From Natrinema sp. SYSU A 869 (GTDB lineage Archaea > Halobacteriota > Halobacteria > Halobacteriales > Natrialbaceae), in contig NZ_CP082249.1 in assembly GCF_019879105.1 (NCBI RefSeq), positions 2,728,001 to 2,792,000 on the forward strand: DNA of 64,000 nt, written 5' to 3'. The position numbers and the translations under genes were made by a program. Positions 244-50,673 of the stretch are shown in pieces (the first letter of the stretch is position 1; each line of letters begins with the position of its first letter). Below the pieces are notes generated by a model. It saw only the letters and a program-made list of their open reading frames with translations, was not told the DNA's origin and searched no databases.

Positions 244-1476
244 CTACTGGTAGAAGTAGCCGGCCGAGGACACGACGTCGCTCGAGTCGTCCTCTTCGAT
301 CTTCTCTAAGGCGTTGGCGAAGTCCTGATGTGTAACTTCGTCGCGGCCGTTGCGGATGGCGAACATGCCGGATTCGGTGGCGAGGCTTTCGATGTCGGCA
401 CCGGAGTAGCCGTCGGTGTCGTCGGCGAGCGAGCTGAAGTCGACGCCGTCAGCGATGTTCATATTGCGGGTATGGATCGAGAGGATCTGTTCGCGGCCGT
501 CGCGGTCAGGTTCGGGGACTTCGATGAGGCGGTCGAACCGTCCGGGGCGTAGAATGGCCCGATCGAGCATGTCGAAGCGGTTGGTAGCGGCGATGATACG
601 GATCTCACCGCGGGCCTCGAAGCCGTCCATCTCGGAGAGCAGTTGCATCATGGTCCGCTGGACCTCGGCGTCGCCGGAGGTCTTGGACTCCGTTCGACGA
701 GTCGCGATGGCGTCGATCTCGTCGATGAAGATGATGGCGGGCTGGCGCTCGCGGGCCATCTCGAAGAGGTCGCGGACGAGCCGCGAGCCCTCACCGATGA
801 ACTTGCGGACGAGTTCCGAGCCGGCCATCTTGATGAAGGTAGCGTTGGTTTCGTTGGCAACAGCCTTGGCGAGCATCGTCTTCCCCGTCCCCGGCGGTCC
901 GTAGAGGAGGACGCCACTCGGCGGGTCGATGCCGACCTCGTTGAAGATTTCGGGCTCGGTCAGCGGCTGCTCGACGGCCTCGCGGACTTCGCGGACCTGC
1001 TCGTCGATACCGCCGATGTCGGCGTAGGTGACTTCCGGCTTCTCCGTGATCTCCATCGACTGGGCGCGCGCGTCGGTCTCGGTGTCCAGAACCGTCTGGA
1101 TCGCGAAGGAGTCGTTGACCGCGACGCGGTCGCCGGGCTCGACGCGGTCGACGATACGCGAGGAGACGTCGGTCAGCACTTCCTGATTGTTGCCGTGCTG
1201 TTTGACGACGACCTGTTCGTCCTCGAGGACGTCCTCGACTGTGGCGATGTATAGCGACGAACTCTTGAGCGTCTCGTTTTCTCGTTCGACACGATCGACT
1301 TTCTCCCGGAGTCGCTCGCGGCGGTCCTCGGCGTCGTCGAGCTGGTCGGAGAGCTGGTCGTTCACGTCGACCAGATCCTCGTAATGCCCACGGAGCGCCT
1401 CGAGCCGTTCGTCATCGGGGAGCTCTGAGTCGATATCGCGGTGAGGTCGGTCGGGAATAGACGGGCTTCGAGACAT
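244..1476 (-). CDS. pan: Proteasome-activating nucleotidase (PAN AAA+ ATPase)
   Basis: 410 residues, the usual PAN length. It unfolds proteins and feeds them into the 20S proteasome. Residues about 25-75 form a coiled coil, followed by an OB-fold domain (about 75-140) and the AAA+ module. Walker A GPPGTGKT is at 193-200, Walker B IIFIDEID at 248-255, sensor-1 AATN at 286-289, and the second region of homology with arginine fingers at about 296-306. The C terminus ends F-Y-Q, a hydrophobic-Tyr-X (HbYX) tail that docks into the proteasome alpha ring and opens its gate. Haloarchaea commonly carry two PAN paralogues; I cannot tell which one this is. It is transcribed alone, tail to tail with the PQQ-repeat gene. 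Confidence 0.95.
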   Translation of the reverse strand: MSRSPSIPDRPHRDIDSELPDDERLEALRGHYEDLVDVNDQLSDQLDDAEDRRERLREKVDRVERENETLKSSSLYIATVEDVLEDEQVVVKQHGNNQEVLTDVSSRIVDRVEPGDRVAVNDSFAIQTVLDTETDARAQSMEITEKPEVTYADIGGIDEQVREVREAVEQPLTEPEIFNEVGIDPPSGVLLYGPPGTGKTMLAKAVANETNATFIKMAGSELVRKFIGEGSRLVRDLFEMARERQPAIIFIDEIDAIATRRTESKTSGDAEVQRTMMQLLSEMDGFEARGEIRIIAATNRFDMLDRAILRPGRFDRLIEVPEPDRDGREQILSIHTRNMNIADGVDFSSLADDTDGYSGADIESLATESGMFAIRNGRDEVTHQDFANALEKIEEDDSSDVVSSAGYFYQ

Positions 1477-1640
1477 CCTGTTGTACGCCGATAGGATTTC
1501 GATGGTAAATGTGCCTTTGGGTCCCGGAGGGATTTCTGCCGAATGGTATTACTGCACACTGTGCGATTGCAGGGAGCGGGCAGCAGATACCGGCGTCCGC
1601 GGAAGAATTAGTAAAATTTTGATACCAATCGGGGGCTCGA

Positions 1641-3443
1641 TCAGTCAAGCAGCGACTCGAACTCCTCGAGGCGCTGGCCGTAGGTCTCGAGCGCGCGGTC
1701 GATCGGCCCCGAGGAGCTCATGTCGACGCCGGCGATCCGCAGGAGTTCGAGCGGGTACTCCCGGGAGCCGTGGCGGAGGAACTCGAGGTAGTCGTCGGCG
1801 GCAGACTGGCCGTTCTCGAGGACATCGTCGACGATGGCGAGTGCGGCGGAGATGCCGGTCGCGTACTGGTAGACATAGAAAGCCCGGTAGAAGTGGGGGA
1901 TACGCATCCACTCGCGGGCGATGCGGTCGTCGATCGCGGCGGGCTCGTAGTAGTCTTCCTTGAGCCCGCGGTAGAGGTCGTCCAGTCGGTCGGCGGTGAG
2001 CGGTTCGCCGTTTTCTTCGAGGCGGTGGGTCTCGTGTTCGAACTCCGCGAAGAGGGTCTGGCGGTACAGCGTCGAGCGCACGCGCTCGAGGAACTCGTTG
2101 AGGACGTGTTTCCGGAACTCAGGATCGTCGACGGTCTCGAGGAGGTGATTGGTCAGCAGCGCCTCGTTGACGGTGCTGGCGACCTCGGCGACGAAGATTT
2201 CGTAGTTCGAGTAGATGAAGGGCTGTTCCTCTTTCGTGAGCTCAGAGTGCATCGAGTGGCCGAGTTCGTGAGCCAGCGTGTACATCGAGGAGATGTCCCG
2301 CTGGTAGTTCAGGAGGATGAAGGGCTGGGTGTCATAGGTCCCGCCGGAGTACGCGCCGGCTTGTTTCCCTTCGTTCTCGTAGACGTCGACCCAGCGGGAG
2401 TCCAGCCCCTCGGCGACTCGAGACTGGTACTCCTCGCCGAGGGGTGCGAGCGCGTCGACGACGTATTCGGTTGCCTGATCGTACTCGAGATCGGGACCCT
2501 CGTCACCGGTCAGTGGCATGTAGACGTCCCACATCTGCAGTTCGTCGACGCCAAGCGCCTGCTCCTTGAGTTCCGTGTGGTGGTGGAGCTTGTCGATATT
2601 GTCGTGGACGGTATCGACGAGCGTGTCGTAGACGTCGACGGGGACGTTCGGGCCATCGAGGGCCGCTTCACGTGCGGTGTCGTAGTTGCGCGCCTGAGCG
2701 GTCTTGACGTCGGCTTTGACGCTGTTCTTGTAGCTGGCCGCGACCGTGTTCCGGACCGACTCCCACTCGTCGAAGTAGGATTCGTAGACGCGCTGGCGAA
2801 AGTCGCGGTTGGGACGCTTGAGCAGGTTCGTGAAGTTGCTCTGGGTGATCTCGATCGCATCCTCCTCGTCGTCCTCGGGCGTCTCGACCGTCGGGAACGC
2901 CATGTCCGCGTTCGAGAGCATGTTGTATACCTCGCCCGTCGCGCCCGTGACCTCGCTCAGGTCGGCGAGTAGCTCCTCGACTTCGGCTGAGCGCGTATGG
3001 GGTTTCATCCGGAGCACGTCGTCGACGTAGTGGTCGTAGGTCTCGAGGGCAGGTGCCTCCGCGACCATCTCGTCGAACTCCTCGCGGGTCAACTCCTGCA
3101 GTTCGGGGTCGATGAAGGAGGCCGCGGACTGGGCGTCAGCCGCGAGCGACTGCGATCGGGCCGTCAACGCCTGGTACTGCTGGTTCGTCGTGTCTTCGTC
3201 GCGGCGCATTCGAGCGTAGGCCGCGACCATCGAGACCTCGCGCATGATCTCGTCGCGGAGTTCGAGGATCTCGAGGAGGGTTTTGGCGTCGTCGGTAACC
3301 TGTCCCTCGTAGGTGTCGAGGTCATCAACGTGCTCGGCGACCGCCTCGTAGGCGGCCTCCCAGTCGTCATCGGTCGCGTAAATGCTCTCGAGGTCCCAGG
3401 TATATCCCTCGTCGACCTCGGAGCGTTCGGGAACGGAACTCAT
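1641..3443 (-). CDS. pepF: Oligoendopeptidase F (M3 family zinc metallopeptidase)
   Basis: 600 residues from the ATG at 3443, the normal PepF length. A longer open frame continues upstream but the extra residues are low-complexity and overlap the divergent M28 gene, so I reject it. The zinc-binding HELGH is at residues 392-396, followed by the downstream glutamate helix (N-Y-E-I-F-V-A-E-V-A-S-T) typical of M3B enzymes. The family cleaves short peptides of about 7-17 residues in the cytoplasm, downstream of the proteasome, which fits the neighbouring PAN. It is divergently transcribed from the M28 peptidase with 124 bp between starts. Highly acidic surface composition is consistent with a halophile. 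Confidence 0.93.
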   Translation of the reverse strand: MSSVPERSEVDEGYTWDLESIYATDDDWEAAYEAVAEHVDDLDTYEGQVTDDAKTLLEILELRDEIMREVSMVAAYARMRRDEDTTNQQYQALTARSQSLAADAQSAASFIDPELQELTREEFDEMVAEAPALETYDHYVDDVLRMKPHTRSAEVEELLADLSEVTGATGEVYNMLSNADMAFPTVETPEDDEEDAIEITQSNFTNLLKRPNRDFRQRVYESYFDEWESVRNTVAASYKNSVKADVKTAQARNYDTAREAALDGPNVPVDVYDTLVDTVHDNIDKLHHHTELKEQALGVDELQMWDVYMPLTGDEGPDLEYDQATEYVVDALAPLGEEYQSRVAEGLDSRWVDVYENEGKQAGAYSGGTYDTQPFILLNYQRDISSMYTLAHELGHSMHSELTKEEQPFIYSNYEIFVAEVASTVNEALLTNHLLETVDDPEFRKHVLNEFLERVRSTLYRQTLFAEFEHETHRLEENGEPLTADRLDDLYRGLKEDYYEPAAIDDRIAREWMRIPHFYRAFYVYQYATGISAALAIVDDVLENGQSAADDYLEFLRHGSREYPLELLRIAGVDMSSSGPIDRALETYGQRLEEFESLLD

Positions 3444-3567
3444 GGGGACGGCTTCGAAGCGGTGGCGGTAAAGCGTGTCGGACCCCTTCACGAACGGCAA
3501 CCGTCGGAAGCGACGCACAGCGCTTGCGCCGGCCTGCCCTTTTCCCGCTCGACGGAGAACGGACGGT

Positions 3568-5037
3568 ATGGACGACGGCGACCGAGAAACGGGGTCGGCC
3601 GACTCGGACCAGACACCGGCCCTCGAGCGCGCAATCGGCCGAGCGTGGACCGACGATCGACCGTGGGACCTGCTGACCCGACTGACCGAACTCCCCCATC
3701 GGATGGGCGGCTCGGGTGGCGAGCGCCGAGCCGCCGAAATCGTCCGCAAAACCCTCTCCGATGCGGGTCTCGAGGACGTTCGAATCGACGAGTTTCCCAT
3801 GCGGTGCTGGGAGCGTGGCACGACCGAATTCGCAGTCCTCGAGGGCGAGACGGAAACGGGAGCCCGAGCGGGCGGCGACGCGGTGGCCACCGATCGAATC
3901 GATCGGTCGTTCGAGGCGATTGCACTGCCGTATTCGCCGGCTAACGATGTCGAGGGGCCGCTGGTCGACATCGGCTACGGCACCCCCGAGGAGATCGACG
4001 ATGCGGCCTTGCAGGGCGGGATCGCCGTCGCGAGTACGACAACGCCGCCGGGCAAGCGGTTCGTCCACCGGATGGAGAAGTTCGGCCACGCCGCAGCGGC
4101 GGGGGCAGAGGCGTTCGTCTTCGGCAACCACGTCCCTGGACAGTTACCGCCGACGGGTGCCCTGAAGTTCGACGCCGAGGCCGCCGTTCCGGGGGTCGGC
4201 GTCAGCGCCGAAACGCACGACTGGCTCACGGACTACGCCGATGGCGGCGCGCGCGCTCGACTCCGCGTCGACGCCACCACGTGGGATGGCTCGAGTCAGA
4301 ACGTCCACGGCAGACTCGGTGGCGAGGCGCGTAGCGCCTCGGGACAGTCGAGCGGACGGAGTTCGCGAGAGACTGACGACGAGGTGCTCGTCCTCGCTCA
4401 CTACGATGCCCACGACATCGGCGAGGGTGCGCTCGACAACGGCTGTGGAATCGCGACCGTTGCCGGCGCGACATCGGTCCTCGCGGCGATCGAGGACGAC
4501 CTCGAGTGTCCGGTCCGGATCGCTGGCGTCGGCTGCGAGGAGATCGGGCTGCTCGGTGCCGAGGCGCTCGCTGACGATCTGCCCCTCGAGTCGATTCGGG
4601 CAGTCGTCAACGTCGACGGCGCGGGGCGGTTCCGGAACCTGCGGGCACTGTCACACGGCTCCGAGTCGCTCGCGGAACTCGCGGACGACGTGACTGACGC
4701 CTTCGGCCAGCCGGTCGTCCACGAGCCGGATCCACACCCGTTCAGCGACCACTGGCCGTTCCTGCGGGCGGGCGTGCCGGCGCTGCAACTCCACAGCGAA
4801 CCGCTCGAGGGCAGCGAGCGCGGCCGCGGCTGGGGGCATACGGCGGCGGACACGCGAGACAAGGCCGACCCGCGGAATCTCCGGGACCACGCTGTCCTGA
4901 CTGCGCTGCTCGTCCGCGAACTCACGAGACGAGACGTGCCGCGGATCGACGAGCGTGAGCTTCGCGAACAGTTGCAGGCACAGGAGTACGAGTCGGGAAT
5001 GCGTGCCGCGGAGATGTGGCCCGACGCGTGGTTGTGA
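3568..5037 (+). CDS. M28 family zinc aminopeptidase
   Basis: 489 residues from the ATG at 3568 (an upstream in-frame ATG at 3475 would run close to pepF and adds only basic residues). Conserved M28 metal ligands are visible: H-Y-D-A-H-D (first zinc His and general base region), L-D-N-G-C-G with the bridging Asp, C-E-E-I-G-L-L-G-A-E with the catalytic Glu pair, V-N-V-D-G, and a late P-F-S-D-H-W-P-F segment. No signal peptide is evident, so probably cytosolic. About residues 252-270 form an insertion absent from what the fold needs (A-R-S-A-S-G-Q-S-S-G-R-S-S-R), encoded by the palindromic element at 4323-4373, just before the metal-binding loop. Confidence 0.88.
   Translation: MDDGDRETGSADSDQTPALERAIGRAWTDDRPWDLLTRLTELPHRMGGSGGERRAAEIVRKTLSDAGLEDVRIDEFPMRCWERGTTEFAVLEGETETGARAGGDAVATDRIDRSFEAIALPYSPANDVEGPLVDIGYGTPEEIDDAALQGGIAVASTTTPPGKRFVHRMEKFGHAAAAGAEAFVFGNHVPGQLPPTGALKFDAEAAVPGVGVSAETHDWLTDYADGGARARLRVDATTWDGSSQNVHGRLGGEARSASGQSSGRSSRETDDEVLVLAHYDAHDIGEGALDNGCGIATVAGATSVLAAIEDDLECPVRIAGVGCEEIGLLGAEALADDLPLESIRAVVNVDGAGRFRNLRALSHGSESLAELADDVTDAFGQPVVHEPDPHPFSDHWPFLRAGVPALQLHSEPLEGSERGRGWGHTAADTRDKADPRNLRDHAVLTALLVRELTRRDVPRIDERELREQLQAQEYESGMRAAEMWPDAWL
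4323..4373 (+). repeat. In-gene palindromic element, copy 1 (in M28 peptidase)
   Basis: A perfect 8-bp stem (4323-4330 with 4334-4341) around the loop GTA, followed by GGACA, TCGAGCGG and a CGCGAGAG block. The insertion keeps the reading frame and is translated as a Ser/Arg/Gly-rich loop. The layout matches copy 2 in the acyl-CoA synthetase and the hairpins of copies 3 and 4. Confidence 0.6.
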
Positions 5038-37985: not shown

Positions 37986-39485
37986 ATGACAGTAATGGGC
38001 GATGGATCCGGCGAGCGGCGGGGGCTGACGGCGACGGTGCCGTCACGGCAGGTCGCGGGGCTGCTCGCGGCCGCCGTCGTGCTCGTCGCCGGGACGGTAC
38101 TGCCCCCACCGGCGGCGCTGACCGTTGAGGGCCAACGCACGCTGGCCGTCTTCCTGTCAGCGCTCGTATTGTGGCTGACTCGGCCCGTGCCATACGTCGT
38201 CTCGAGCGTTCTCAGCGTCACGTTACTGTTCGCGCTGGGGACCGTCGAGTCGTTCAGCGCGGCGACGACGGGCTTCACCTCAACGCTCGTGTTCTTTCTG
38301 CTCTGCCTCCTGTTGCTGGGCAACGCGACGACGAGCGTCGGGCTCGATCGGCGGCTGGCGCGACGACTGTTGACTGCGGACAGCACGCCGCGCCGGGCGC
38401 TGCGCTCGGTCGCCGGCAGTGTCCTCGCGCTGGCGCTGGTCATGCCCTCCGCGATGGCCCGTGCGATCACGTTCATCCCCATCGTGAAGCGACTCGCGGG
38501 CGCGTTCGGACCGGACGCCGACGGCGGGTTCGAGAGTGCAGCATTTCTCGTTCTCGGCCACGTCAATCCCATCGCGTCGATGGCGCTGATGACCGGCGGC
38601 GGGATGGCGCTGGTCACCTCCGAGATCGTCGCGACGTCGGTACGGCCGATCACGTGGGTCGACTGGGCTGTGTTGATGGTGCCGCCAACGATCCTCCTGT
38701 ACGCGCTGGCGGCCCTCGCTGCGGGGCTCTTCGCGCGGGTCGGTGGGAAAGCAACGGTCGGCGCGCATGGTGCGCCCCGGCCGGACGCGGACGGCGACGG
38801 AATCGAGGTGCGAGCGGACGGTGACGAGACTCACCCGGAGACGGACGGCGACGGGACGGCCTCGCTGACGCGCGACCAGCGTCTCGTGGGACTCGTCCTC
38901 CTCGGAGCCGTCGCGAGCTGGATCGGCGGCTCGTTCGTCGGGCTTCCGACGGTGGTCCCCGCAGTTGCAGCGGTCACGGTGCTCTCGCTCCCGTCCGTCG
39001 GCGTCATCACAGGCGAGGACATCACAGACGTGAGCTGGGGCATCATTTTCCTCATCGGCGCGATGTTGTCGATACTGGACGTGATGAACGCGACCGGCGC
39101 AATTACGGCCGTCATCGACGCGCTGACACAATGGATCCCGTTCGCGGCGCTCGCCGATTGGCAGATCGTCGCCGTGTTGATCGCCATCGCCATCGGCATC
39201 CGGATCCTGTTTTCAACCGGCTCAGCGGCGATTGTCGTTGCGCTCCCGATCGTCCTCGAGTTCGCGAGCGTCTTCGGCATCGCTCGGCTGCCGCTCGCGC
39301 TGACCGTCTTACTGGTCGTCGGCTCGACGACGATCCTGCCGTTCAACACGACGGCAGTGCTGGTCTCGATGGATCGCGGGCCGCTGTCACACCGCGATGT
39401 CGCCGCGTTCGGCCTCGTAACGATGGGACTCTCGATCGTCGTCGCCGCGCTCGCGTGGCTCGTCTACTGGCCACTGGTGAGCTGA
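37986..39485 (+). CDS. SLC13/DASS-type anion transporter
   Basis: 499 residues from ATG 37986 (GTG 37953 and ATG 37995 are alternatives). About 11-12 membrane helices, with two SLC13 motifs: P-S-A-M-A-R-A-I-T-F in the first half and S-T-T-I-L-P-F-N-T-T-A in the second, plus F-S-T-G-S-A-A-I-V-V. An acidic hydrophilic loop at about 255-295 (D-G-D-G, H-P-E-T-D-G-D-G-T) sits between halves. The family imports di- and tricarboxylates or sulfate with Na+. It precedes an HTH_10 regulator gene by 32 bp, same strand. Confidence 0.85.
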   Translation: MTVMGDGSGERRGLTATVPSRQVAGLLAAAVVLVAGTVLPPPAALTVEGQRTLAVFLSALVLWLTRPVPYVVSSVLSVTLLFALGTVESFSAATTGFTSTLVFFLLCLLLLGNATTSVGLDRRLARRLLTADSTPRRALRSVAGSVLALALVMPSAMARAITFIPIVKRLAGAFGPDADGGFESAAFLVLGHVNPIASMALMTGGGMALVTSEIVATSVRPITWVDWAVLMVPPTILLYALAALAAGLFARVGGKATVGAHGAPRPDADGDGIEVRADGDETHPETDGDGTASLTRDQRLVGLVLLGAVASWIGGSFVGLPTVVPAVAAVTVLSLPSVGVITGEDITDVSWGIIFLIGAMLSILDVMNATGAITAVIDALTQWIPFAALADWQIVAVLIAIAIGIRILFSTGSAAIVVALPIVLEFASVFGIARLPLALTVLLVVGSTTILPFNTTAVLVSMDRGPLSHRDVAAFGLVTMGLSIVVAALAWLVYWPLVS

Positions 39486-39517
39486 CAGCGATCGACTGCG
39501 ACAAACGTGAGCTATAT

Positions 39518-40246
39518 ATGAGCGGGCCGGACTCTACCCTGTACGGAGGGTCGCAAATTCTACGCGTCGAGTTCACAACTGTCCCGACGGGCGTGATGGC
39601 AAAGCTCCAGCAGGCGCTGGACAACGTCCGGAGTATCGAACTCGATAACGCCTTCTACGTCGAGGACGGGACATGGCTCGAGTCGGTGACCGTCGCCTCG
39701 AATACCGAATTCGATCCCGAGACGGCCCTTGAGGGGATTTCCGGTGCATCACTGTTCTATAGCAGCGAGATCCCGACCGCGTCCGATAATCTCGAGATCC
39801 GTCGGCTTACTATTCTGGCGAACGAGTCGTACCCGTTCATTCTGAGCCTCGTGTTGCGCCAGGAGGCGATTCCGAACCGGATCGTCCTCCAGAACGGCGT
39901 CTTCGAAGTCGTGACGACCGCACGCGACTGGGATCAGTTCCGCTCGATGGCCGACGAAATTCAGGAGACACTGGGTGAATTCGAGCTGCTGTCGGTCACT
40001 CAGGACGAGGAGCCTGGCGAGCCACTGGACAGCGGCCGGCTGACGGAGGTCCTCGTCTCGAAACTCACCGATGACCAGCTGGCGGTCCTCGAGACGGCCT
40101 ACACCCGCGGCTACTTCGATGTGCCCCGGGAAACATCGGAGACGGACCTCGCGGACGAACTCGACGTTACCCAGTCGACGGTCAACGAGCGACTCCGGAC
40201 CGCCGAGCGGACCCTGCTCGAACTCATCTACGGTCCTCGCGACTGA
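39518..40246 (+). CDS. HTH_10 (bacterio-opsin activator type) regulator
   Basis: 242 residues from ATG 39518. The C-terminal about 60 residues contain L-T-D-D-Q-L-A-V-L-E-T-A-Y-T-R-G-Y-F-D-V-P-R, D-L-A-D-E-L-D-V-T-Q-S-T-V-N-E-R-L-R-T-A-E, the HTH_10 domain unique to haloarchaea. The N-terminal about 150 residues are a sensor-like region of the kind found in other members. By position it may control the SLC13 permease before it or the peptide transporter after it. Confidence 0.88.
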   Translation: MSGPDSTLYGGSQILRVEFTTVPTGVMAKLQQALDNVRSIELDNAFYVEDGTWLESVTVASNTEFDPETALEGISGASLFYSSEIPTASDNLEIRRLTILANESYPFILSLVLRQEAIPNRIVLQNGVFEVVTTARDWDQFRSMADEIQETLGEFELLSVTQDEEPGEPLDSGRLTEVLVSKLTDDQLAVLETAYTRGYFDVPRETSETDLADELDVTQSTVNERLRTAERTLLELIYGPRD

Positions 40247-40372: not shown

Positions 40373-42282
40373 ATGACGACAAGAGAAAATGATGATAGTT
40401 CGGTCGGCAGGGCATGCGACCGACTCTCACGACGCGGCTACATCGCCGCGGCCGCCGCGACGCTCGGAACGAGCGCGCTTGCGGGCTGTAGTAGCAGCCG
40501 TGGTGAGAGTCTCGAGCCGGACGTGCCCGAGGGGTACCGGAGACCGTCGAGACACAGTACTGGCGGGAATGGGAGACCGTCGACGCCGACTCGCCGCCGC
40601 TGGACTACAGCGCAACGGCCGGGTCGGTACTCGAGCAGTTGCCGGTCGAGTTCTCGAGCGAGGACGACCCGTGGATGCGCGAGCACGCGTTGATGGTCAA
40701 GCGCGGTCTCAACGAGTTGGGTATGGCCGTCGGGCTCAATGATCGGCCACTGAACCAGCTGTACGCCCAGAGCTGGAAAACGCGGGGGCTCGAGGCGGTC
40801 ATTTCGATGAGTACGCACGGGCCGGACCCGCAGCGGGGGCTCGATCCAAACCCGCTGTTGATGCGCGCGACCGAGGGGTCGCTCTCGAACTACGACAATT
40901 ACCACAATCCCGAGCTACAAGCGGTTCTCACAGAACAGGCCCAGACGACCGATCGTGAGGAGCGCGAAGAACTCGTCGACCGCGCACAGGAACTGTTCGC
41001 CGAAGACGTCGGGGCGCTCATCACGCTGTACCCGAACATCATCACGGCGGTGAACACGGAACGGTGGAGCGGCTACGTCGAAACGCCGGGCAACGGCCCG
41101 ACGATGGACTCGTTCGTCTGGACGGAGGTCAACCTCCAGCCCGAGGCGGACAACCGGACCTACGTCAAGGGCGTCACCACGTCGATGAACTCGCTGAACC
41201 TGCCGTGGGCCGCCGGCGGCGCGGAGGCCAATCGACTCACGTTCATCTACGACGGATTATTCGACGCGACACCCGATTTGGACGTGGTCCCCGCACTGGC
41301 GACCGGCGGCGGTTTCGTCGACGATACGACTGTCGAACTCACGCTGCGCGAGGGCGTCGAGTGGCACGACGGCGAGGCGTTCACCGCCGAGGACGTGAAG
41401 TTCACCGTCGAACTGTACCAGGAGTACTCCTCTACGAGCCAGGTGCCGTTCTACGAACCCATCGAGTCGGTCGAGATACTCGGGGATCACGAGGTGCGAT
41501 TCAACCTGGCGAACCCCGACGCATCGTTCATGACCCAGCGCGTCGTCCGAAGCGTTATCCTCCCGAAACACCGGTGGGAGGACGTCGACAACCCGTCCCA
41601 GCACAACCCTGACGCGCCCGTCGGCACCGGCCCCTTCCAGTTCGAAAACTGGGAACAGGGGACCCGGTTCGAGGCCTCGCGCAACGAGGGCCACTGGATG
41701 TTCGACGACGACTGGCGGACCGATGCGCTGGGCGATCAGGCCGAACGCGGCCCCGGCGTCGACAGCGTGATCTGGATCAATGTGAGCAATGTCGACGCAC
41801 TGATCGGTTCGCTCCAGAGCGGCGCGATCGACGCGATCGGGACGACACTCTCGGACCTGCAGGCTGACCGCGCGGCCAACACCGATGGGATCGAGAAGCT
41901 GTCCGTCGGTAGCTACGCGCCGCTGAACGCGAAGCTCATGTTCTCCTGTCCGCCGATCCGGGACAAGGAGTTCCGTATCGCACTGTCGAAAGCGGTCGAC
42001 TCGGAAGGGTTCGTCGAGGACTTCCTCCAGGGTCAGGCGACGGTCCCGTCCGGAGAGAACCTGATCTCGTCGCTCACCCAGTGGCACAATCCCGAGACGA
42101 CTGACTACAACTACGATACCGAGGAAGCGCGGACGATCCTCGAGCAGGCGGGCTACACCTGGGACAGCGACGACAACCTGCGATTCCCCAATGGCGAGGC
42201 CTGGGGCGCGTTCGTCGAGCGTATCCAGCCCGAGAACTCCCACAAGCGCCGCTCGGATCTCGACCAGCCAGATTTCTCATGA
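40373..42282 (+). CDS. Peptide ABC transporter substrate-binding lipoprotein, frame broken at 40531-40534
   Basis: Residues 1-39 hold a twin-arginine signal (L-S-R-R-G-Y-I-A-A-A-A-A) and lipobox S-A-L-A-G-C39. The frame breaks at G4; five G gives P-E-G-V-P-E-T-V-E-T-Q-Y-W and a 636-residue protein. The SBP_bac_5 core is out of order: the part that normally ends the family (L-N-E-L-G-M-A-V, H-N-P-E-L-Q-A-V-L, D-R-A-Q-E-L-F-A-E-D-V) comes first, and the usual opening (V-T-T-S-M-N-S-L-N, F-I-Y-D-G-L-F-D, L-R-E-G-V-E-W-H-D-G) follows near residue 255. First gene of the transport operon; it binds peptides or similar solutes outside the cell. Confidence 0.85.
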
Positions 42283-42478: not shown

Positions 42479-43474
42479 ATGAGCAAGTTCCAGCGGTTCC
42501 TGCTCAAGCGACTCGCGATCTCCGTCCTGTTGACGCTGGTCGCGGTCTCGGTCATCTTCGTCGTCCTTCGACTCCTGCCGGGGAGTCCCTTCGAGGCGCT
42601 CGTGACCTCGGGGAACCTCAATCAGGAGCAGATCGACGAAATCCGCGCGATGTACGGGCTCGATCAGTCGATCTGGGTGCAGTACGTCAACTACCTGGGG
42701 AGCCTGCTGACCTTCCAGTTTGGCTACTCCATCCTGCGGAGCCAGCCGGTCTGGGACGTCCTCGAGCCGCGGCTGATCAACTCGCTGATCCTGTTGATTC
42801 CGGCGCTGGTGACGACGGCGATCCTGAGTTCGCTTCTGGGGATGTACGCCGGCTGGAACCGTGGGAGCCGCCTCGAGAAAGCCAGCATCGTCTCGACGAC
42901 GCTGCTGCGCTCGACGCCCGTCTTCATTACGGCGATCTTCTTCATCATCGTCTTCGCGTACAACCTCGAGATCGTGCCTGCCCTCGGGATGCGATCGATC
43001 CGGGCGACGCCGGACGGCTACCTCGAGACGTTCGTCTCGCTGGACTTCCTCCATCACTACCTCCTGCCCTTTACCGTCGCCGTCCTCTACTACAGCGGTG
43101 ACTTCTTGTTGCTCGCTCGTAACGGCGTCATTGAGAAGCGGGGCTCGGAGTTCCTCAAACTCCACCGGGCGAAGGGGCTCTCGGAGATGCAGCAACTGGC
43201 CCGTGCGGGCCGGAACTCGATGCTGCCCATTCTGACGTACTTCACCCTCCGTCTCGGCATGATTTTCCAGGGCCTCATCCTGCTCGAGGTGGTCTTCAGC
43301 TGGCCCGGCATCGGCCGCGAACTCGTATTGGCCATCCAGCAGCAGGACTATCCGCTGGTGCAGGCGGCGGTCTTCATCATGGCGCTGGCGGTTATCATCG
43401 CGAACCTCGCCGCGGACGTCCTCTACGCGTACTTTGATCCGACTGTGTCGACCAACGGAGGTGGCTCTGCATGA
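42479..43474 (+). CDS. Peptide ABC transporter permease (DppB type)
   Basis: 331 residues. A long first helix (about 8-32) starting K-R-L-A-I-S-V-L-L-T-L, a P-G-S-P-F-E loop, and five more helices. The cytoplasmic ATPase-contact loop is V-I-E-K-R-G-S-E-F-L-K-L-H-R-A-K-G-L-S-E (EAA-like). G-L-I-L-L-E-V-V-F-S-W-P-G-I-G-R is typical for this family. The preceding 196 bp after the binding-protein gene contain no gene I recognise. Its last four bases overlap the next permease (ATGA). Confidence 0.93.
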   Translation: MSKFQRFLLKRLAISVLLTLVAVSVIFVVLRLLPGSPFEALVTSGNLNQEQIDEIRAMYGLDQSIWVQYVNYLGSLLTFQFGYSILRSQPVWDVLEPRLINSLILLIPALVTTAILSSLLGMYAGWNRGSRLEKASIVSTTLLRSTPVFITAIFFIIVFAYNLEIVPALGMRSIRATPDGYLETFVSLDFLHHYLLPFTVAVLYYSGDFLLLARNGVIEKRGSEFLKLHRAKGLSEMQQLARAGRNSMLPILTYFTLRLGMIFQGLILLEVVFSWPGIGRELVLAIQQQDYPLVQAAVFIMALAVIIANLAADVLYAYFDPTVSTNGGGSA

Positions 43475-44391
43475 GTACCGAAACGAAACCCAAAGCCGAA
43501 CTGTACAGGCGCGTCGACGCGCTGTGGACGACTGTCCGCGACCAGTTCGCGTTCCTGCGGCGGGACCCGCTGGCGTTCGCCGGCATGCTCGTCGTCGCGG
43601 CGTTCGTCTTCCTCGGGCTGTTCGGGCCGTTCCTGGCCCCGCACGACCCGATCGAATACACCGTCCGCGGCGACACCAGCTCCGTACTCCGGCTCTCGGC
43701 CCCGAGCGCGGACGCCTACTTCGGGACGACGGCCTACGGGAAGGACGTGCTGAGCCAGTTCCTCGCCGGCGCACGACCGACGCTCATTGTCGGCCTCTTC
43801 GGCGGCCTGGGGACGGGTGCGCTCGGCTTCACCGTCGGCGTCGTCAGCGGCTACTACGGCGGCTGGGTCGACGAACTCCTGATGCGCCTGACCGACCTGA
43901 CGTTCTCGCTGCCGTTCATGCCGATGGCGTTGCTGTTGCTGACGTTCATGACGCCGAACATCTGGCTGATCACGGCCATCATCGCCGGCTTCCTCTGGAA
44001 GATGCCGGCGCGGGTCGTCCGCTCGGAAGTGCTGTCGGTCCGCGAGCGGACGTTCGTCAAATCGGCTCGAGCCAGCGGCGCGAGCAATCTGCGGACGATG
44101 CTGTACCACGTCGCGCCGAACGTGTTGCCGATCGGGTTCCTCTACACCGCCTACGGCGTCGCCTGGGCGATCGCGGCACAGGCGAGTCTAGCGTTCCTCG
44201 GCTTCGGCGACCCGACGATGACCAGCTGGGGTCGGATGCTTCGGCAGGTGTTCGCGTCGGGCAGCATGCGCGTCGCGTGGTGGTGGGTGCTCCCGCCAGC
44301 GATCGGTATTGCCGCGATAACCACCTCGGTGTTCCTCATCGGACGGGCCTACGAGGAAGTCATCAACCCCGAAATCCAGACTGACCAATGA
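43471..44391 (+). CDS. Peptide ABC transporter permease (DppC type)
   Basis: 306 residues. The N-terminal helix after F-L-R-R-D-P-L-A-F-A-G, then L-A-P-H-D-P-I-E, F-G-T-T-A-Y-G-K-D-V-L-S-Q-F and the A-R-A-S-G-A-S-N EAA-like loop are features of DppC/OppC partners. Forms the membrane channel together with the upstream permease. Translationally coupled at both ends by 4-base overlaps with its neighbours. Confidence 0.93.
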   Translation: MSTETKPKAELYRRVDALWTTVRDQFAFLRRDPLAFAGMLVVAAFVFLGLFGPFLAPHDPIEYTVRGDTSSVLRLSAPSADAYFGTTAYGKDVLSQFLAGARPTLIVGLFGGLGTGALGFTVGVVSGYYGGWVDELLMRLTDLTFSLPFMPMALLLLTFMTPNIWLITAIIAGFLWKMPARVVRSEVLSVRERTFVKSARASGASNLRTMLYHVAPNVLPIGFLYTAYGVAWAIAAQASLAFLGFGDPTMTSWGRMLRQVFASGSMRVAWWWVLPPAIGIAAITTSVFLIGRAYEEVINPEIQTDQ

Positions 44392-46487
44392 CGCTACTCA
44401 ACGTCGAAGACCTCACAGTCACGTACGCGACCGACGACGAACCAGTCCACGCCGTCAACGACGTCTCCTTCAGTATCGACGAGGGCGTCAACTACGGCCT
44501 CGCCGGCGAGTCCGGCTCCGGGAAATCCACCGTTGCGGAAGCACTGCTGGGACTACTCCCGGGGAACGGCACCGTCGAGCGCGGGACGATCGAGTTCAAC
44601 GGGACGGATCTCACATCGCTCTCGGCGGCCGAACGGCGGGACGTCCTCTGGGAGGACATCGCTTACATCCCCCAGAGCGCGATGGACTCGCTCGATCCCG
44701 TGATGTCGACCGGCGACCAGATCGCACAGGCGATCCACACCCACCGCAACGTCACAGATTCCAAGGCGCGCGACCGCGTCCGTGAACTATTCGAGATCGT
44801 CGGGCTCGATCCGGATCGGATCGACGACTATCCCCACGAGTTCTCCGGCGGGATGCGCCAGCGGGTCACCATCGCGATGGCGCTGGCCCTCGAGCCGGAC
44901 CTCATCATCGCCGACGAGCCGACGACCGGGCTGGACGTCATCGTTCAGGACAAGATCATCGACAAGATCCTCGAGATTCAAGAGCGGATGGACAGCTCAT
45001 TGCTGCTCATCACTCACGAGATCGGTGTCATCGCCGAGACCTGCGACGAGCTATCGATCCTCTACGGCGGGAAGGTGATGGAGCAGGGCAGCGTCGACAA
45101 CGTGCTGGTCAACCCCACCAACCCCTACACGATGGGGTTGAAGAACTCCTTCCCGGAGATCGGCGAGAGCGAGGACCCCGTCGCGATCCCCGGTTCGCCG
45201 CCGAACCTGAACCAGGAGCCGACGGCCTGTGTCTTCGAGGATCGGTGTCCGTTCGCCACGGAAGAGTGCGGGGAGTCCCACCCGGACCTAGTCGATCTCC
45301 CGAACCGCAACCACCGGTCGGCCTGCCACCGCGTCAAGGAGGCGGCCCAGATGCGACAGGCTGCCGACGAGCCGGAGACGTGGGACATCCCCGACGACGG
45401 CGATGCCGACTCCGACCGCGGCGAGGTCATCCTCGAGACGGATACTCTGGAAAAACACTACGAGCAGAGCCAGTCATTGGTGAGCAAGTTCCGCGGCGAG
45501 GACCCCGATCACGTGAAGGCGGTTGACGGCGTCTCGCTGTCCGTCCGTCGCTCGGAGGTGCTCGGCGTCGCCGGCGAGTCCGGCTGCGGGAAGTCGACGC
45601 TCGGCGAGACCATGGCCCTGCTCGAGGACCCGACCGGCGGCGACCTGGTGTTCGACGGAGAGCCCTACGAGTACTATCAGGACGGCAATCTTCAGGAGTT
45701 CCGGCGGAAGGTCCAGATCATCTTCCAGGACCCCTTCGATTCGCTGAACCCGCGCCAGACTGTCCGCAAACTCGTCGGTGAGCCGCTGACGATCCACGAC
45801 TACCGCACCGATGAGAAAGAGCAAGCCATCGTCGAGACGCTCGAGAAGGTAGGACTGACCCCTGCCGAGAAGTTCCTCGATAGCTATCCCCACGAACTCT
45901 CTGGAGGACAGCGCCAGCGTGTGGCGGTCGCCAAAGCGCTGATACTGGATCCGGACTTCCTCATCTGTGACGAGCCGGCGTCGATGCTGGACGTCTCGCT
46001 GAAGGTCAACCTGCTGAACCTGCTGCGGGGACTGGCTGACACCGAGGACATCGGGATCGTCTACATCTCTCACGACCTCGCGAGCCTGACACAGGTCTCC
46101 GACCGGCTGGCCATCATGTACCTCGGCCGAATCATCGAGGAGGGTGACGTCGATCGGATCGCAACTCAGCCTAAGCATCCCTACACGTCGTCGCTGCTCT
46201 CGGCCGCGCCGGAGAAGGACCCGACCGTCGATCGGACCCGCGTCCTGCTCGACGGGGAGCCGCCGGACCCGGTTGATCTCCCTTCGGGCTGTGCGTTCGC
46301 CCCGCGCTGTCCGAAGGCCGAGGAATCGTGTTGGGAGGCCGAGCCGGGAATCGATGAGACCGGCGACGAGCGCCACCGGGCGGCGTGTTACTTCCCGGAG
46401 AGCGAGGGCGAGTCGGCTGCCTCGGACGCGTCGGCCGCGGACGACGAGTTCCCGGCGTCTGCGAACACCGACTCAGTGGGTGACTGA
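44388..46487 (+). CDS. Fused peptide ABC transporter ATPases (DppD-DppF)
   Basis: 699 residues, two complete ATPases in one chain. Half 1: [25 protein letters not shown]; half 2: [25 protein letters not shown]. Each half ends with the oligopeptide-transporter Cys cluster ([14 protein letters not shown], then [14 protein letters not shown]) that can bind an Fe-S centre. A charged linker joins them near residue 335. In most organisms these are separate genes. Confidence 0.93.
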
Positions 46488-48496: not shown

Positions 48497-49237
48497 TCAC
48501 ACGAACAGCAACAGCACGGCGTAGCCGGCCGCTCCAATGGCGAAGGCCCAGAACCCACTCTCGCGATTTGACGGCAGTTCCTCCTTGATCACATTGAGGA
48601 CGATTCCGCCTGCCAGAAACGGGACGCAGACGGAGACGAGGAGTTCGGTGTCCTCGAGGACGTATCCGCCAGCGAAGCCGATGAGTACCGCCGCAGATAG
48701 TACCCACCGGCCTCGACGGTGGTACGTCGGGCCGTGGTGTTCTCGAAGGCCGTCGTCGGTCACGAGGAAGTGGAGTGCCATGGCAGTGACGAACAGGAGC
48801 GGGCTGCCGAGTTCGCGATCCCAGAGGAGGTAGCCGACGATCGAATTGTAGGCCGCGAACGAGCCGACGTGAATCCAGAATACCCCCGTCCCGGCGGGCT
48901 CGTCGTCCAATCCCGGATCGGTGCTCGTCCAGCGGGCGAGTCGTTCGAGGCCATAGAAGGTGACGAATCCCAGCAGAGCGATCAGATAGCCGTACTGCTC
49001 AGCAAAGGCTGTCGGCGTTCCGTGTTCCTTGAGCGTCGCCGCGGCCGCCCCGACCTCGGGGAGGAGGTGGACGAACACGTACGCGACCGAGACGCCGCCG
49101 GCGAGGGACAGCCACCGGCTCCGCGGAATCCGGCCGCCAAATCCCAGCCGGCCGGCGAAGAGGTGGACCAGTGCGAGTATGATCGCGAGCACAAGGAGAC
49201 CCACCCCGTCGGGGCGCAGTGCGCCGGTCGAGAGCAT
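48497..49237 (-). CDS. ZIP-like integral membrane protein
   Basis: 246 residues with seven to eight hydrophobic segments. Near helix 2: A-Y-V-F-V-H-L-L-P-E; later A-L-H-F-L-V-T-D-D-G-L and G-G-I-V-L-N-V-I-K-E-E-L-P, arranged as in the ZIP metal-transporter fold, though the His/Glu pattern differs from true ZIP and metal transport is unproved. Starts 48 bp after the Na/Ca exchanger stop, same strand, so probably one transcript. Confidence 0.7.
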   Translation of the reverse strand: MLSTGALRPDGVGLLVLAIILALVHLFAGRLGFGGRIPRSRWLSLAGGVSVAYVFVHLLPEVGAAAATLKEHGTPTAFAEQYGYLIALLGFVTFYGLERLARWTSTDPGLDDEPAGTGVFWIHVGSFAAYNSIVGYLLWDRELGSPLLFVTAMALHFLVTDDGLREHHGPTYHRRGRWVLSAAVLIGFAGGYVLEDTELLVSVCVPFLAGGIVLNVIKEELPSNRESGFWAFAIGAAGYAVLLLFV

Positions 49238-49285
49238 CGACGTGGACGAACCACCCCTGCGAACGTAGACCTGTGGCCGGCAGCT

Positions 49286-50673
49286 TTAGTCGTCGACGCT
49301 GTGGGTTCGATCAGTCCCGACCATCGGCATCGCATCGCCGACCGTCCCTGCAGTCCGCCGGACGAGACGACCGAACGCCCGCCGGCGGCTGATGAACAGC
49401 ACCGTTCCGAGGACGATGTAGATGCCGCTATAGATGAGCAGGAGGTCGGTACTCGAGACCGGAAGTGCGACGAACTCACGGATGATGACGAACTCGAGGA
49501 GGACCTGCGAGAGGAACAGGACGAGCAGCGTGATCGCTTCCCGAACCGATATTTGAAGCCGATCAGGAGGGCGATAGCGAAGAACGACTGGGCGGCGGTC
49601 AGCCAGATTTCCGCCGACTGTTTGAAGTCGAAGGCGAGCACGCCGTACCGACCGAGCGCGAGCGAGTGGACGACGACGAGAGTCCCGATCAGCAGCGTCC
49701 ACTGGTTGAGCTTTGACGAGATCAAGGCGTTAAAGCCCGCGGTCGAGCGGGCCTTGTTCACCAGATAGACGACGACGATGAGTTCCGGCGCTTCGGAGGC
49801 CAGCGGCGCGATCCACTGGATCATGAAGAAGGAGGGGATGCCGACGCTCTCGCCGAGGTGCTCGAGCCCGTGGGCGAAGGGCTCGACGGCGGTGAAGATC
49901 ATTGTGCCGGAGTAGATGAAGAGCACGAGGACGGTCGCGATACGAAGCGGTCTCGAAAAGCGCTGGAGGTATGCCGGCACGCCGACGTGGTCCATGTCCG
50001 GTTCGACCTCGCCGCGGAGGATCACCGCGATGTAACAGACGTAGAGCCCGACCAGGAACAGCATGTCGAAGATATCGATCCCGCCGTTGAGCGGGACGAG
50101 GAACGCCCAGAGCGTCGCGAGCAAGAGGAAGACGATCTCGAGGCCGATCTCCCGGTCCAAGATTACGACGTCCGTGAGGAAGCCCGGTCGTTTCTCGACC
50201 GAGGGATCGACCGACGACCCCCGGCGAAAGATCGTAAAGAGGGCGACGCCGGCCCAGCCGATGCCGATGAGGATCCGGTTCGCGCCGGTCATGTTGGCGA
50301 CGGCCAGGTTGCCTGCCTCGATCCCGCGTTCGGTGCCCGCGAACACGCCCGCGTTCCAGGCGTAGAGCGCGTCGACGGCGTATTCTGGCGCGACGGCCAA
50401 CACGGCGAGCACCGCGATCGCGAACGCCTGGGGGACGTCCTTCTCGGCGGTCTCGGCGGCCCACGCGAGGAGGAACGCGGCCCCGAGAACGGCGAGTCCG
50501 GTCAGGATCACTGTCCAGAACGTCGATAGCGTGCTGAACCGGGCCGGTGCTTGGTATTCGACTCCCGCGACCGCTGTGAGCCAGGGAAGAATATCGGTCG
50601 CTCCCACAATGGCGACCCAGGGAAGCGTCAGTGCGACTGCGGCCGATATTGCGCCGAGTGCTCGTCGTCTCAT
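49286..50673 (-). CDS. Sodium/calcium exchanger family protein, frame broken at 49540-49542
   Basis: Start ATG 50673. Two alpha repeats are visible: A-V-L-A-V-A-P-E-Y-A-V-D-A and A-P-L-A-S-E-A-P-E-L-I-V-V-V-Y, with about ten helices in total. The first frame turns into Ser/Arg-rich noise after F-K-Y-R-F-G; one extra G in G3 (C3 on plus strand, 49540-49542) gives G-E-A-I-T-L-L-V-L-F-L-S-Q-V-L-L-E-F and a normal end at 49286, 462 residues. Without this correction the frame would run into the ZIP-like gene. CaCA proteins exchange Ca2+ or other cations for Na+ or H+. Confidence 0.87.

Follow-up and report, generated by a model that had tools for sequence, protein, structure and literature searches.

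The window, that is the whole 64,000-nucleotide stretch of Natrinema sp. SYSU A 869 DNA analyzed here, carries on its plus strand a gene for a bacterio-opsin-activator-like HTH_10 regulator (39131..40246; Pfam HTH_10, E 1.2e-17; the true start probably lies inside the ORF), followed by a gene encoding a substrate-binding protein (SBP) whose two parts are in permuted order, then by genes encoding a DppB-like permease (42479..43474; Pfam BPD_transp_1 and BPD_transp_1_N), a DppC-like permease (43471..44391; Pfam BPD_transp_1 and OppC_N), and a fused DppD-DppF-like ATPase (44388..46487; two ABC_tran and two oligo_HPY stretches by Pfam). The neighbor criterion of a Dpp/Opp system is met for this SBP, two BPD_transp_1 permeases and oligo_HPY ATPases adjoining it. 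This organization is shown to be conserved: the regulator, the permuted SBP, DppB, DppC, and the fused DppDF occur in the same order at all 24 loci from named genomes, a few of them having additional spacing before the SBP gene or between it and the DppB gene, and the orthologues of the window protein at these loci are 63–93% identical to it across the entire permuted length.

The SBP gene of the window is split into two frames. Its first segment (40373..40534, plus strand) encodes an RR motif and a lipobox LAGC (RR...LAGC at ~40430-40489, Cys codon 40487-40489), which we take to be a Tat-type lipoprotein signal, together with the start of the mature linker, and lies in a frame other than that of the body; in aligned intact relatives, this signal and the body share one frame. 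The body ORF runs from a TTG at 40639 to the stop codon ending at 42282 (547 aa), its frame being open upstream to ~40510. Comparison with intact relatives locates a one-base deletion within 40529..40538 (plus strand), where the window reads GAGGGGTACCGGAG (14 bases) and L029 reads GAGGGCGTCCCGGAG (15 bases). Since orthologues with signal and body in a single frame (L009-L019, L026-L049) have the same order of parts, as far as the loci are distinct, the permutation is not a product of the frameshift. Elsewhere in the window, a membrane protein encoded on the minus strand (ORF 48982-50673) turns into Ser/Arg-rich nonsense near 49530 while its hydrophobic sequence continues in another frame, which is likely a second one-base frameshift of the assembly. 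Given this second probable frameshift, the break in the SBP gene may reflect a recent inactivation, but an error of sequencing is no less likely than a true mutation.

In the body, the C-part of the SBP_bac_5 fold, the last third of a canonical protein, is now N-terminal (40666..41103, plus strand; C-part profile E 1.2e-16, residues 54-199 of the 591-residue frame). A short joint linking the former C-terminus to the former N-terminus (41104..41136, plus strand) occupies the gap between the profile matches and brings together positions 520 and 38 of the full canonical model. The N-part, the canonical first two thirds, comes next (41137..42159, plus strand; N-part profile E 6.5e-63, residues 211-551; Pfam positions 2-287), and a new C-terminal tail past the opened region (AFVER.Q....RR..L.Q.DFS), conserved in the orthologue alignment, leads to the stop (42160..42282, plus strand). 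Pfam SBP_bac_5 (PF00496) scores 180.9 bits (cut-off 32.4) over model positions 2-287 of 368, at residues 216-515. The protein matches only this cluster C family and does not fit the cluster B (type I) fold with permuted N-lobe strands that characterizes the MglB-2 kind. The whole SBP_bac_5 fold is thus present by profile and the canonical order of its segments is not met; as the C-part lies ahead of the N-part, the protein is a permuted variant and not an ordinary member of SBP_bac_5 / cluster C.

The initial annotation, made from the sequence alone, had claimed that the closing motifs of the family lie before the opening ones, that the order is the last third followed by the first two thirds, and that the chain ends where the closing segment would begin. 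All three claims held: NPEL, DRAQELFAEDV, and PNIITAV precede YDGLFD and LREGVEWHDG in a single open frame, the two part profiles give the stated order, and the Pfam match ends at position 287 of 368. One of the observations that would have refuted it, a normal order once the frame is repaired, was not made, orthologues with an unbroken frame having the identical order, and other haloarchaeal homologues share this order, as do alphaproteobacterial ones. Its scope was too small in that permuted SBP_bac_5 proteins constitute a large clade and the permutation arose more than once. Structure prediction, which it had proposed as a check, was tried twice with AlphaFold (25- and 19-row alignments), and neither model was good enough to rely on; because the mean pLDDT reached only 46.1 and 47.8, a single two-lobed fold is not shown and is inferred here.

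The order assay relied on canonical profiles built from 35 SBPs (31 archaeal proteins together with E. coli DppA, OppA, GsiB, and NikA; an additional sequence longer than 650 residues was excluded) and cut at model position 365. This split was picked after seeing where the permuted alignments end; the order in the window gene is nevertheless independent of it, since Pfam, which was made by others, itself gives the same reversed order in other genes, such as a second gene of the window genome in which positions 284-360 lie upstream of positions 1-284 in one 605-aa ORF. Rotation scans were also tried: with a full-length canonical profile of four sequences, clear optima were obtained only for some distant members (L020, L021, L022, L004, and L005), and with the 35-sequence profile no permuted row gave an informative optimum, because the matches split into domains, so that the two-part assay was used instead.

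At the first loci, 40 of the 50 distinct SBP ORFs are permuted, nine are canonical, and one, a 338-residue fragment, is scored as "mixed." The E. coli controls are canonical in four cases out of four, with the reservation that they are themselves part of the profile, and the C-part match is non-significant (E 0.023-0.93) in four of the nine canonical haloarchaeal calls. At later loci, which partly duplicate genes already assayed, 64 of the 72 matching ORFs are permuted, three are canonical, and five contain one part only, the corresponding figures in the set of plasmids and viral contigs being seven, five, and three out of 15. Non-archaeal permuted SBPs were found on alphaproteobacterial plasmids (Roseomonas, Nitratireductor, Microvirga, Ketogulonicigenium, and Maritalea); the viral contigs scanned yielded no permuted SBP and one canonical SBP (L165). 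The window genome itself encodes 14 SBP_bac_5 ORFs, four of them permuted (the window gene, L003, L004, and L005), and the canonical calls for L058 and L059 are based chiefly on the range of the Pfam match. A profile match in a genome (at least 139 of 145 and at least 149 of 246 genomes) is not counted as evidence of permutation, because canonical proteins match partly; no total count of permuted genes across haloarchaea stands behind these figures. One protein suspected of permutation from its Pfam range (L157, in genome G085) turned out to be canonical in the order assay. Five permuted haloarchaeal SBPs (L146, L147, L148, L150, and L152; 646-706 aa, L152 being inside a longer frame) have a best N-part match of only ~210-220 residues, and L146 displays a second stretch after a gap of ~25 residues.

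The position at which the chain is opened varies little. The Pfam match ends at position 287 in the window protein, 288 in L026 and L153, 285 in L166 and L167, 279 in L155, and 257 in L003. Placed on the full canonical model, almost every permuted row has the end of its N-part within ~354-370 and the start of its C-part within ~362-388; the N-part end deviates in L003 (338), L141 (345), and L044 (395). Since its Pfam match stops at 257 and those of the others at 279-288, L003 is opened in the same region but not at the same residue. On E. coli DppA, the signal of which is 28 residues long, the site corresponds to about residue 371 of the precursor, or 343 of the mature protein, which we take to be in domain III according to the DppA structure literature. 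The sampling is biased toward this site, because members were found with a profile of the permuted form. In a 789-aa SBP_bac_5 protein (L163; G092:C1:1818000-1823500, ORF 1296-3662, plus strand), a match to Pfam positions 150-353 (residues 43-290) precedes a weaker one to positions 28-133, and residues 765-787 form a PGF-CTERM; this protein likely represents a fifth permutation, opened at a different site near Pfam position 140.

Phylogenetic analysis with the parts restored to canonical order (85 rows, 495 columns, quick search) places 36 permuted rows, 31 haloarchaeal ones including the window protein and five alphaproteobacterial ones, in one clade (SH-aLRT 96). The remaining permuted rows lie elsewhere: L003 is sister of the canonical L164 (100), L154 and L155 fall inside the canonical family f21 (100), and L153 is sister of the canonical L081 and L094 (100). 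Placing all 40 permuted rows in one clade costs 585 log-likelihood units (p-AU 4.1e-104), grouping the major clade with L003 costs 148.6 (p 5.6e-5), and grouping L153, L154, and L155 costs 177.6 (p 4.7e-5); all three constraints are rejected by the AU test, the sets having been named only after the tree was seen. In a more careful tree of 45 chosen rows with additional f21 members, the starred branches force four order changes, the 15 rows of the major clade are supported at 99/95, and 200 bootstrap trees give four order changes across the 5-95% range and a single origin in 0%. For L155, the closest proteins to either part are canonical members of the same family (79% and 84% identity); for L003, either part is closest to the canonical L164 (45% and 36%). 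The trees and AU tests hence show at least four independent permutations with the same region of the chain opened each time, the bias in the sampling of opening sites being kept in mind. In the clade of the window protein, the permutation is likely old and common to haloarchaea and Alphaproteobacteria.

The most recent of these changes can be followed within genus g111 of family f21, a family in which 27 of 55 genomes match L155 and 3 of 30 loci are permuted in the order assay; 24 of 27 distinct-genome loci are canonical once three loci repeating the same genes are excluded. When eight genomes of the genus were compared by Pfam, four proved canonical, Pfam running straight through positions 1-367 in G249, G261, and G377 and 3-367 in G371, and three proved permuted within the same ORF, with positions 290-367 upstream of 1-287 in G273, 292-367 upstream of 1-275 in G265, and 293-367 upstream of 1-285 in G311; the eighth had no match. 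Permuted and canonical species share about 85% protein identity by part (~83-87%), and their genes ~78-81% DNA identity in two blocks that have exchanged order. The cut is resolved to a few residues: the canonical ..AGYSEDNKLKLELWW.. is interrupted, and the permuted form has, after the signal, ..EEAKKLKIELWW.. first and then ..YYLVYSEEQKDTITIGVTD.., ending in ..AGYSE in G273. A linker-like EE.K stands ahead of both parts of the permuted form, which is compatible with a tandem duplication followed by trimming, a possibility for which it provides a weak hint only.

Permuted SBPs of the other origins also lie beside complete Dpp sets, L213 behind one and L215 in front; L208, L209, and L213 represent the two f21 origins, and L215, of a second haloarchaeal origin, precedes its Dpp set, as does its canonical relative L214. 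In the permuted g111 species (L208 and L209), the SBP gene is divergent from dppBCDF; in a related genus (L212), a canonical SBP gene heads the operon in the same direction, and no complete dpp set was present within the stretch taken from the two canonical g111 species examined (L210 and L211). The alphaproteobacterial permuted SBPs likewise adjoin permease and ATPase genes. It is very likely that the window gene encodes the working extracellular SBP of a Dpp-type importer with a permuted topology, its fold, ligand, and docking being inferred in the absence of ligand, expression, or transport data. It is likely as well that the importer is of the peptide type, with this protein as its binding component; its ligand is unknown, and binding and delivery are inferred without assays.

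The protein shares with canonical members of SBP_bac_5 / cluster C (E. coli DppA, OppA, NikA, and GsiB) all segments of the fold by profile, the partners DppB, DppC, and DppD/F, and export with a lipid anchor in haloarchaea, and differs from them by the swap of its parts, the chain being opened near Pfam 285-290 and the old C-terminus closed onto the old N-terminus. When 18 permuted proteins were combined into a profile, 118 PDB sequences matched it; in the 60 of these inspected, the best stretch never begins before profile position 187 and so never spans the joint. The searches of the open-access literature brought up no description of a permuted SBP_bac_5 / cluster C protein, which is weak evidence of absence, and the only published natural permuted SBP found there belongs to another class: Tp0684 / MglB-2 of Treponema pallidum, assigned to "Type Ic / Cluster Bc," which is membrane-tethered, has an ABC importer partner, and has relatives in treponemes and Gram-positives (PMC4990184). 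The window protein resembles MglB-2 in being a natural, circularly permuted, membrane-tethered SBP with an ABC importer as partner. MglB-2 has, however, a cluster B sugar-binding fold opened at another site, whereas the kind described here belongs to cluster C, occurs in archaea and Alphaproteobacteria, and has several origins. Archaeal SBPs anchored by PGF-CTERM (TIGR04281) are also comparable, since the independently permuted L153 has a C-terminal PGF-CTERM (residues 565-588; TIGR04126, 28.8 bits, cut-off 24.5); the match of L153 to TIGR04281 covers only the anchor region (residues 524-588), far below cut-off, and in the window protein the anchor is instead a lipobox at the N-terminus.

We propose that the window gene product is the lipid-anchored SBP of a Dpp/Opp-type ABC importer and would adopt a circularly permuted family-5 (cluster C) fold, in which the short joint fuses the old N- and C-termini and the opening lies in the loop that connects the helix ending in ..EAGY to the beta strand after it. 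As in canonical SBPs, a peptide or a similar ligand would be enclosed by the two lobes and handed over to DppBC, the sole change being the point at which the signal and lipid anchor are attached. Beyond this clade, the same region was opened in at least three further independent events; tandem duplication and then trimming is the most likely route, though an inferred one.

Why the permutation recurs can be explained in several ways. One loop may simply tolerate opening, duplication and trimming producing permuted genes occasionally and these persisting without advantage. The coexistence of both forms in the window genome and in genus g111 speaks for such neutral recurrence, as does the apparent permutation of L163 at another site, but the persistence and expansion of the major clade in haloarchaea are unlike those of a mere tolerated oddity, and we can neither favor this explanation nor set it aside.

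Alternatively, the permutation may have been selected for because it shifts the anchor from lobe I to a surface loop of the other lobe and alters the seating of the SBP on the transporter. Both termini of canonical SBPs lie in lobe I, and the opened loop lies in the other lobe. Most of the permuted archaeal members listed carry a lipobox, L153 has its PGF-CTERM instead, and, since the opened loop bears both new termini, the two anchor types would attach at one and the same position; tethering was suggested as a possible reason for the permuted MglB-2 by Brautigam et al. (PMC4990184). Against this view, canonical SBPs of the window genome (L002, L006, and L051) carry the same kind of lipobox, the alphaproteobacterial L166-L170 have none in the residues inspected, L023 has none by motif search, and the location of the termini in the lobes is background knowledge and not a computed result. 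Adaptive relocation of the anchor is a possibility and no more. A bolder reading, in which family-5 SBPs have a permutation hot spot (at least four openings of the same loop in archaea, one lineage shared with Alphaproteobacteria, one opening within a genus, and another site in L163) and the permutation is selected because the membrane attachment moves to the other lobe and docking changes as a result, appears unlikely without being excluded.

A single ancient permutation, inherited and horizontally transferred with reversions to the canonical order, finds support in the haloarchaeal and alphaproteobacterial clade, which looks like one old event, but is very unlikely, given that the parts of L155 and of L003 are closest to canonical proteins, that the AU tests reject the groupings of permuted rows, and that most loci of family f21 are canonical. 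Lastly, an artefact of frameshift, misassembly, or two neighboring fragments read as one gene, for which the frameshift of the window copy and the probable one near 49530 speak by indicating indels in the assembly, is all but excluded by the identical order in intact frames at the 24 named-genome loci and at 11 further orthologous loci (some of them the same genes).

Natural circular permutations are usually regarded as rare, old, and single events. With the same swap found in many archaea and some bacteria and at least four origins, the protein seems to have been cut and rejoined at one favored place, and the SBP_bac_5 family appears to have been permuted repeatedly at nearly the same position, recently enough that close species differ in a component of their importer. 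Such proteins are described incompletely by annotation pipelines and order-dependent profiles: Pfam recognizes only some three quarters of its model, and the label in those annotated records that we inspected is merely "ABC transporter substrate-binding protein." The matched permuted and canonical forms constitute a natural test of whether folding, export, and docking on the transporter depend on the order of the chain and the position of the anchor.
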